Assembly: GCF_036345015.1 (NCBI RefSeq)
Contig: NZ_CP084098.1
Coordinates: 558,001-622,000 of the forward strand
From: Cyanobacterium sp. Dongsha4
Lineage (GTDB): Bacteria; Cyanobacteriota; Cyanobacteriia; Cyanobacteriales; Cyanobacteriaceae
DNA: 64,000 nucleotides
Reading direction: 5' to 3'
A program made the translations under genes and the position numbers. The notes beneath the pieces are model-generated. The model was given only the letters and a program-made list of their open reading frames with translations, searched no databases and was not told the DNA's origin. Below, in pieces: positions 26,508-62,577 of the stretch (the first letter of the stretch is position 1; each line of letters starts with the position of its first letter).

Positions 26508-26555
26508 GAGTTTGAGTTCGGGGTTCGGAGTTCGGAGTTAAGAGTTAGAAGTTAT
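26507..26555. repeat. STRR array, seven heptamers (GAGTTCG family)
   Basis: Seven consecutive 7-nt units: GGAGTTT, GAGTTCG, GGGTTCG, GAGTTCG, GAGTTAA, GAGTTAG, AAGTTAT. The first base is the last base of the GH57 stop codon. It is among the longest and cleanest arrays in the window. Confidence 0.85.
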
Positions 26556-32728: not shown

Positions 32729-32860
32729 ATATAGCGTTTATTAAAACTATGAGGTACAGTTTTTTGTACAACTTTCTATTGCTTATTGCCCATTCCCTAT
32801 TCCCGAATACCGATAAGTTTTGTACCCCACCATAACAAAAATTACTACAAACGCAACTCA
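32729..32860. repeat. degenerate dispersed repeat with imperfect inverted ends and an internal STRR
   Basis: Begins right after the mfd stop. The left end (GCGTTTATTAAAAC, TATGAGGTACAG) and the reverse complement of the right end (GCGTTTGTAGTAA, TATGGTGGGGTACA) are similar. Inside, 32777-32804 is a heptamer array: TATTGCT, TATTGCC, CATTCCC, TATTCCC. The TATGAGGTACAG motif recurs (as CTGTACCTCATA) at about 5352 and, in changed form, at about 62527. This looks like a worn small mobile element. Confidence 0.4.
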
Positions 32861-58082: not shown

Positions 58083-59447
58083 ATGAGAATAGTCGCTTAT
58101 AGCTACATTGAGCTATTAATAGATTCTATACCAGATCCTCAAATTTGGGGATGGGAAATAGAAGAAATTTATCAAGACATAGATACAAGAGAAAAACTTA
58201 GTCAATTACTCTTTGATTCTCAAGATAATGCCCCTGATTATCTTTTAATTAATAGTCTTCACGAATTAGGTAATAGCTTAACCGAAGTTGAGAATAACAT
58301 ATTTAGATTAGAAAGTCTTAGTATTGAGATAATCTCTTTACAACAGGATTATCATAGTAAAAATTTTCAGAATATAAATAATATAAAACAAAGAAAAAAA
58401 TTATTAGAAATTTGGCAGGAAATAGAAAATTTAATCAAACATAGAAAATTGAAAAAAGCCCATGCTAAAAATCGTTTAAATATCATTCCACCTCCTGGAA
58501 AACCTCCTTATGGATACTCAAGAGGCAAAGAAGGTTATATTGTTAACCGTGCCACTGCACCCATTATTAGAGCTTTTTTTGATCGTTTTTTACTTTATGG
58601 TTCTCTTCAAGATACGGTTAATTATTTAGCTGAAAAATATAATAAAAAAATATCTATATCTACGGCAAAATATTGGTTAAATAATCCCATTTATCGAGGA
58701 GATTTAAACTATAAAAATCAACAAATTATTCCCGATACTCATACTGCAATTATTACTAGAGAAGAGTCTGCACAAATAGAAAGAATTTTTCAAAGTCATC
58801 GTCGAGTTAAACAGAAAAGTGCATCATCTCAACACTGTTTAGCAGGTTTAATTCAATGTCAATGGTGTAAGTCAAATTTTCGAGTTAATACTGTCACAAA
58901 GCGAAATAAATCTGCAAAGTATTTATATTTAACTCCTGTGGAATGCAAAAAAGAAATTCCTTGTAAATCCATTAATTATGATTTAGTTTTACAAAAGGTT
59001 ATCGATAATATTTGTAATAGTTTTAAAGAAATTAAAAATCAAGAACAAATGCCAAATATAGAACAAATTAAAAATTATTTACTAACAGAAATTAATCAAA
59101 AAAAAATAGTAATAACACAAATAGAAAAATTACTGGAAGAAAAAATTTTAGATGAAGAAACTGCAAAAATAAGAATTTACAAAATAAAACAGGATATAGG
59201 AGTGCTAAAACAGCAAATAGCAAAACTTCCTCCAAATAGTTTAAATACCATTGCGAATACATTATCTTTACCACAATTTTGGTATGATTTATCTTCCTCT
59301 GAAAAGAGATTTTATTTAAGAGAATTTGTTAAGATAATTGAGATTATTCCCCAGAATAATTATCCACAAAAAAAAGATGTTCAACTAAATTTTGTTTTCG
59401 CTAATGCACAATTAAACAATTCATGGCAAAATAGGGAAAAAGTATAG
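58083..59447 (+). CDS. serine-recombinase-like protein with degenerate catalytic domain
   Basis: 454 aa. The N-terminal 90 residues align by position with the resolvase domain: start RIVAYSYIELLIDS, then DYLLINSLHELGNSLTEVENNIFRLESLSIEIIS. The expected Y-x-R-x-S active site and the D-R-L-x-R-S arginines are not there. The recombinase domain is well kept (GKPPYGYSRGKEGYIVNRATAPII, STAKYWLNNPIYRGDLNYK), followed by a zinc ribbon (CLAGLIQCQWCKSNF ... VECKKEIPCKS) and a coiled coil. It probably binds DNA but cannot do serine recombination. It stands alone: no att sites, transposon ends or cargo seen. A site AGGAG lies 11 nt before ATG. Confidence 0.8.
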   Translation: MRIVAYSYIELLIDSIPDPQIWGWEIEEIYQDIDTREKLSQLLFDSQDNAPDYLLINSLHELGNSLTEVENNIFRLESLSIEIISLQQDYHSKNFQNINNIKQRKKLLEIWQEIENLIKHRKLKKAHAKNRLNIIPPPGKPPYGYSRGKEGYIVNRATAPIIRAFFDRFLLYGSLQDTVNYLAEKYNKKISISTAKYWLNNPIYRGDLNYKNQQIIPDTHTAIITREESAQIERIFQSHRRVKQKSASSQHCLAGLIQCQWCKSNFRVNTVTKRNKSAKYLYLTPVECKKEIPCKSINYDLVLQKVIDNICNSFKEIKNQEQMPNIEQIKNYLLTEINQKKIVITQIEKLLEEKILDEETAKIRIYKIKQDIGVLKQQIAKLPPNSLNTIANTLSLPQFWYDLSSSEKRFYLREFVKIIEIIPQNNYPQKKDVQLNFVFANAQLNNSWQNREKV

Positions 59448-62044: not shown

Positions 62045-62078
62045 TCTTGTTTTACAATTATGACATTAGTGGTGTCTT

Positions 62079-62084
62079 ATTATA
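62079..62084 (-). promoter_or_regulatory. -10 box candidate for rpoZ
   Basis: TATAAT on the reverse strand, 35 nt from the rpoZ ATG. The -35 region is weak. The transcription start would fall near 62072, so the target duplication of the MITE (62117) is at about -45. Confidence 0.45.
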
Positions 62085-62116
62085 TCAAAATCTTTCCCAT
62101 TATCCACAGTAAACCC

Positions 62117-62339
62117 CCTACCAACACAGGGCTGTTTCATTCTAAAATTTTTTGGTTAAGGCAGTGAATGGGGAATAGGCAATGGGCAATAGTTTTTAAT
62201 GATTTATGCTTATAAATTGATAATCTCAACATTTTTAACTACTTCTTAATCCTCAAAGCTCTAAAACCCTATATTCTTTTACTGGCATTAGTTTTAGCGT
62301 TTTTGTATTTCTACTTTGAAACAGCCCTGCCTACCAACA
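62117..62339. mobile_element. MITE-like element with 13-bp inverted ends and 10-bp target duplication
   Basis: The left end CAGGGCTGTTTCA (62127-62139) and right end TGAAACAGCCCTG (62317-62329) are exact inverted repeats bounding 203 bp. Both sides carry the direct repeat CCTACCAACA (62117-62126 and 62330-62339). There is no coding frame inside, but there is a heptamer array at 62171-62191 (GGGAATA, GGCAATG, GGCAATA). The perfect duplication implies a fairly recent insertion. A 10-bp duplication is in the range for IS4-like transposases, so one elsewhere in the genome may have moved it; that is inference. Confidence 0.8.
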
Positions 62340-62577
62340 TGATGGATGATGCCAAGCTGACTCATATTTGTTGTTTTATCAAGCAAGAAGCAACCTCTTT
62401 ATATTTCCTCTCAAAATCAGAATTTAAGTCATTTCGGGAATTAGTAAAAAAGTAGGCGTTGGTAAATTAAGCTATATTTTTTAGTTTAGATCGGGAATGG
62501 GGAATAGGCAATGATGCACTGGTATCAAAAAACAGCACCTCATAAATATGAAAATTACTATATACATACGTCTTAGC
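62340..62577. other. spacer between MITE and solute-binding-like gene
   Basis: Contains the heptamer array GGGAATG, GGGAATA, GGCAATG at 62493-62513, then the CACCTCATAAATATG motif at about 62531 and TAAGCTAAGACGTAT (reverse strand) at the end of the downstream gene. Otherwise unassigned; no gene seen. Confidence 0.5.

Follow-up and report, generated by a model that had tools for sequence, protein, structure and literature searches.

In Cyanobacterium sp. Dongsha4, a 203-bp non-coding segment with repeated ends lies directly upstream of the promoter predicted for rpoZ. This raises the question of what the segment is, how it came to this site and whether its presence matters for the omega subunit of RNA polymerase. 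In a sequence-only reading of the 64,000-nucleotide stretch analysed here (the window), it had been described as a 203-bp MITE with perfect 13-bp ends and a 10-bp target duplication, and these coordinates proved exact (Table 1). The terminal inverted repeats are identical at 13/13 bp and the flanking direct repeats at 10/10 bp. The combination of a perfect inverted repeat of at least 13 bp (spacing 60–1000 bp) with a bordering direct repeat of at least 10 bp occurs once in the window, compared with 0 of 60 order-1 Markov sequences. When up to two mismatches were allowed, no further occurrence of the end sequences was found in the 64-kb window. The element contains no ORF of at least 60 aa and therefore no ISAs1 transposase gene of its own, which rules out an autonomous ISAs1 insertion sequence (IS).

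Table 1. Features at and around the element upstream of rpoZ, in window coordinates.
Feature	Position	Strand	Remarks
MITE, short form, ISAs1-type ends	62127..62329	+	203 bp; about 40 copies or fragments genome-wide
Left target-site duplication CCTACCAACA	62117..62126	.	Exact match of 62330-62339
Right target-site duplication CCTACCAACA	62330..62339	.	10/10 compared with 62117-62126
Left terminal inverted repeat CAGGGCTGTTTCA, continues as CAGGGCTGTTTCATT	62127..62139	+	15 bp common to both ISAs1-element ends
Right terminal inverted repeat, inward reading CAGGGCTGTTTCAAA	62317..62329	-	Complement of CAGGGCTGTTTCA, 13/13
Heptanucleotide (STRR) array	62164..62191	+	Four units, GGGAATA / GGCAATG type; lag-7 match 0.56, best lag
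rpoZ, RNA polymerase omega subunit, 76 aa	61814..62044	-	NF001574; protein identical in G001
Predicted rpoZ promoter	62079..62106	-	TGGATA, 16 nt, TG-extended TATAAT; 10/12 consensus bases
Second STRR array GGGAATGGGGAATAGGCAATG, separate from MITE	62476..62513	+	137 bp beyond MITE

A genome-wide search for the ends, as the sequence-only reading had proposed, uncovered a dispersed family. In the own genome (4,320,404 bases, 5 contigs), BLAST returned 75 matches to the MITE, and manual grouping placed these at about 40 sites holding copies or fragments. Including matches to the end pattern alone, 58 stretches were inspected, and both ends could be paired in 34; where a single end was recognisable, the locus did not enter the pairing. 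From the 34 paired elements, L048 and L050 (larger elements without a duplication), L060 (213 bp, also without a duplication), L052 and L065 were set aside. The 29 counted MITEs, taken in the wide sense, comprise eight short forms of 203–204 bp including the copy at rpoZ, two members of a second subfamily (197 and 205 bp), one deleted form (294 bp) and 18 long forms of 379–431 bp. The identity of the rpoZ copy to the seven other short forms is 93.6–96.6%. Exact target duplications of 10–13 bp border 16 of the 29 end-to-end copies, and duplications of at least 9 bp with at most one mismatch border 24, while the other five show none. The duplicated sites mostly start with C, with G as the next base after them. 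When the flanks were rejoined in a script, none of the 29 insertions was found to interrupt an ORF of at least 80 aa. No long-form MITE was found on plasmids in PLSDB, a search from which very near records were possibly left out.

Two of the elements set aside, L052:1155-1328 and L065:961-1134, are 174 bp long, carry CAGGGTTTTTTCA ends, are bordered by exact 9-bp target duplications and represent a related MITE family. In addition, the MITE copies L014 and L030, which are about 1.8 Mb apart, have right flanks matching at 59/60 bp and differing left flanks, and L030 has no target duplication. This pattern could reflect either recombination between the copies or insertion into copies of another repeat.

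The 15-bp end has 83 matches in the own genome with up to two mismatches, compared with 7 for the reversed pattern. Identical 15-bp ends enclose a decayed ISAs1 element with a broken transposase (C1:2370205-2370981, 777 bp), of which two transposase pieces match NF033564 with 50.7 and 93.9 bits. An intact ISAs1 transposase of 363 aa (NF033564, 259.6 bits; cut-off 70) is encoded in genome G026 by an IS with perfect CAGGGCTGTTTCATT ends 1201 bp apart, situated within a CCTTCCGGAAAG duplication. The left end of the MITE agrees with both the decayed IS (L048) and the G026 IS at 15/15 bp, and the right end agrees over 13 bp, followed by AA instead of TT. A search with the G026 transposase against 195 genomes of the order gave matches in 37, and the loci were fetched for 30. 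At 20 of these 30 loci, such ends are paired 900–1700 bp apart with at most three mismatches per end. Exact duplications of 10–12 bp, counted by eye, flank ten of the 20 paired elements, mostly at palindromic CCCC..GGGG sites, and three of the 20 possess the same CATT/CAAA end asymmetry as the MITE. The target duplication range of ISAs1 elements is reportedly 8–10 bp (ISfinder), compared with 10 bp at rpoZ, 10–13 bp across the MITE copies and 10–12 bp in the related cyanobacterial ISAs1 elements. Since its ends belong to an ISAs1-family IS, decayed in this genome and intact elsewhere in the order, the element is an ISAs1-type MITE.

Which transposase could have moved it? The sequence-only reading had suggested looking in this genome for a transposase flanked by the MITE ends, and this expectation stood in part: the decayed 777-bp IS has such ends, but a search of the own genome gave no intact transposase with MITE-type ends. 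Its one intact type of ISAs1 element, present in three copies, has different ends, CAGGGCAAACGC, and is not favoured as the mover. Since the own intact element has other ends, the best candidate would be a subgroup of the ISAs1 family now represented in this genome by a broken element. The similarity between the MITE and the ISs (L048 and others) ceases after about 15–25 bp, so that the MITE, which has only its ends and not its interior in common with L048, did not arise from it by simple internal deletion. The likeness to ISAs1 ISs (NCBIfam NF033564) comprises the 15-bp ends, the 10–12 bp duplications and the CCCC..GGGG target context seen in the related cyanobacterial ISs, whereas the missing transposase gene and the unlike interior set the MITE apart. 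Elsewhere in the window, a 454-aa protein (58083-59447) adjoining a glyoxalase gene matches NF041201 (XisF-type excision recombinase) with 118.7 bits, below the cut-off of 375.

An empty site with a single target had been proposed as a check in a relative, and it was found in G001, the sole other genome of the genus within our search. At the rpoZ locus of G001, the MITE and one target copy are absent, and a single target copy, CTTGCCAACA, is present. The rejoined flanks of the own genome read TAAACCCCCTACCAACATGATG, compared with TAAACCCTTGCCAACATAATG in G001, with homologous sequence at either side, and the rpoZ-side neighbourhood aligns at 95% between the two genomes. The MITE is likewise absent from G001 at the L013 and L024 sites, but there the flanks have diverged and no clean empty site is left. 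Among 20 rpoZ loci (own, 14 of the family and 5 others of the order), the MITE is present at a single one, that of the own genome. The more distant genomes bear weakly on the ancestral state, since their upstream DNA no longer aligns. Conversely, the filled site could be ancestral, G001 having lost the MITE through precise excision. Such precise loss is possible in principle, and G001 holds two left-end-like family fragments at other places. However, the MITE is present at none of the other 18 rpoZ loci and no full copy was found in G001 in the search, and we regard this history as highly improbable.

The empty site also bears on the view that there is no transposon, the inverted and direct repeats having arisen by chance or belonging to a structural RNA. 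The strand can fold with paired ends (z −1.82), but no Rfam family reaches its gathering threshold, and the copies, the target duplications and the same-ended IS all argue against this view, which the empty site by itself already refutes; its probability is practically nil. The sequence-only reading had itself named what would count against a MITE, namely sister strains sharing the whole 203 bp with no empty site, or the lack of both another genomic copy and a transposase with matching ends. Neither is the case: the element occurs in many copies, target duplications are present, G001 has the empty site and a transposon family shares the ends. Judged from sequence comparison, the element upstream of rpoZ is very probably a MITE, non-autonomous and mobilised in trans by a transposase of the ISAs1 family. 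A transposase of the ISAs1 subgroup would bind the 15-bp MITE ends, and insertion would take place where intergenic DNA is C-rich/G-rich, the cut being staggered by about 10–12 bp. The copy at rpoZ would have arrived after the split from G001, or would have been precisely lost in G001, and the heptad array would be an old internal part of the MITE family with turnover of its units.

With the element taken as a MITE, its effect on rpoZ can be considered. The gene assignment is based on NF001574 (109.4 bits; cut-off 98). The predicted −10 hexamer, TATAAT, corresponds to 62084-62079, and transcription would start at 62072, about 7 nt downstream. The position of about −45 that had been given relative to the predicted rpoZ start holds for the target duplication, while the element itself is situated at about −55. 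The predicted −35/−10 pair lies beyond both the insertion and the duplication and differs from G001 in one base, located in the −35 hexamer. With the predicted core promoter outside the insertion, an effect on rpoZ may be possible. One could therefore propose a regulatory insertion under selection for changed rpoZ expression, acting by promoter supply, by a moved upstream site or by blocked read-through from the co-directional upstream gene. The distance to the predicted start would suit such a role, as would a minus-strand promoter-like site directed at rpoZ (62168-62139, 9/12) and a weak terminator-like hairpin at the junction (62131-62116). However, the numbers of promoter-like sites from the element (4 compared with 2.7 in shuffles) and terminator-like sites (1 compared with 0.6) are near chance, the core promoter is outside the element and differs from G001 in that one base only, and the rpoZ copy is one of about 40 across the genome. 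Selection for altered expression thus appears improbable. The MITE insertion would most likely be neutral or slightly alter the region upstream of the −35 box, and we provisionally regard it as near-neutral.

The sequence-only reading had further placed an STRR array inside the element, and this is borne out by the family. In 24 copies of about 200–245 bp (10 own and 14 from five other genomes, long forms excluded, with same-genome copies being non-independent), a lag of 7 gives the best match in 23, with a mean match of 0.59 compared with 0.23–0.31 at other lags. In these 24 copies, which span six genomes and three genera (own, G003, G008, G009, G010 and G011), the outer array occupies one fixed place about 33–70 bp from the left end, and its units differ between copies, being of the GGGAATA/GGCAATA type or the GAGTAAT type. 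The long form, with 18 own copies, differs from the short form by an insert within the array of heptads, which reads TACCTGAGTTCG(GAGTTCG)n ... CGAACTCAGGTA. The number of GAGTTCG units in this nested repeat varies from copy to copy, some long forms carry an additional block of about 34 bp, and long-form lengths step mostly by 7. The nested insert was also found alone in G001, G005 and G010 and at one own-genome place near L021. The short form is probably older, since the copies examined in G003, G009 and G011 are without the nested insert; L122 of G011 has another, different insert in its heptad array. That STRRs can travel with mobile DNA, as had been claimed, is supported by the fixed place of the array in six genomes and by the variable number of GAGTTCG units. 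Relatives or parts of the small GAGTTCG repeat, which forms the interior of L026:598-1024, are located at 1872-1969 and 26513-26554 in the window and in genomes of the family.

Heptad arrays are not restricted to the MITE. The GGSAATRGGSAATRGGSAAT pattern, with one mismatch, has 117 matches in the genome, and the reversed control has 0. From 100 of the 117 matches, at least 59 arrays could be assembled, 13 in MITE copies or fragments and 46 elsewhere, and 43 of these 46 were examined for flank sharing. In 40 of the 43, compared with 2 of 43 controls, one or both 50-nt flanks are similar to a flank of some other array, at a level exceeding the 95th percentile of control segments taken at a distance of 200 nt, with right-flank similarity inflated in part by other short tandem units. 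Whole-profile matches over the non-MITE arrays are common, and left flanks with at least 8/10 matches to TTGGTTAAGG occur in 7 of 43, compared with 0.56 expected. In view of this flank sharing, the array in the rpoZ MITE belongs to a wider pattern in which heptads are associated with dispersed elements. Derivation of the free STRRs as decayed copies of the rpoZ MITE was unsupported, with 2 of 43 left flanks exceeding the best control against the MITE left arm. A MITE-like group with a heptad array inside comprises L213, L221, L230, L234 and window 32740-32840 (around 32778), and its fuller members have the ends TATG.TGAGGTRCA ... TGTACCTCATA.

The second array close to rpoZ (Table 1) is absent from G001. 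Its left flank resembles L249/L232, whereas on the right it is flanked by sequence like that of the TGTACCTCATA family (L230), and it looks as if two dispersed repeats had become fused at the array. An inverted repeat at 62465-62474/62574-62583 was considered as a second element and rejected; its right arm shares sequence with the end of a coding gene, and it is probably due to chance. As a tentative idea, which we consider possible but doubtful, heptad STRRs in this lineage may be internal modules of small mobile elements instead of standing alone; MITEs and MITE-like repeats would disperse them, their units would change in place, and the arrays would act as landing sites for further small repeats.

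In earlier work, Mazel in 1990 and Elhai in 2008 reportedly described cyanobacterial heptanucleotide arrays in intergenic DNA, with small repeats inserted into arrays. In contrast to such STRRs, the array here itself lies within a transposon that is defined by its ends and target duplications. For a tandem array inside a MITE, the nearest precedent, in the portion of the source at hand, is BrickBuilt of Porphyromonas gingivalis (PMC4596501). According to the same portion, BrickBuilt and MITE464/PgRS are intergenic MITEs with an internal tandem array of 23- and 41-nt units and ends of a known IS family, IS5-type, with both ends in only 4 of 19 BrickBuilt copies and variable duplications (PMC4596501). 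The rpoZ MITE differs from these descriptions in its 7-nt units, its ISAs1 ends and its mostly regular 10–13 bp duplications. As far as the available excerpts describe them, cyanobacterial MITEs include an ISL3-type element of 187 nt with 8-nt duplications in Microcystis (PMC11448079), those of Anabaena sp. 90, for which no matching IS is reported (PMC3542288), and Nezha (cited in PMC10969869). All are short, non-coding and mainly intergenic, with tens of copies, like the element studied here, whereas those of Microcystis and Anabaena sp. 90 have other ends where given, and the excerpts mention no heptad array. An ISAs1-type MITE with a heptad array was not found for cyanobacteria among the matches listed for the literature on MITEs, ISAs1 and STRRs, as far as these sources could be consulted.

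Combined, the locus provides a clean insertion 5′ of a core polymerase gene, filled here and empty in the same-genus genome, and a transposase subgroup can be named as the probable mover of the MITE. If STRRs were indeed modular parts of such mobile DNA, a clear example would be the MITE at rpoZ, with its ends, its target duplication and its empty site in G001. Carriage as transposon passengers is a candidate route for the spread of heptanucleotide repeats in cyanobacteria.
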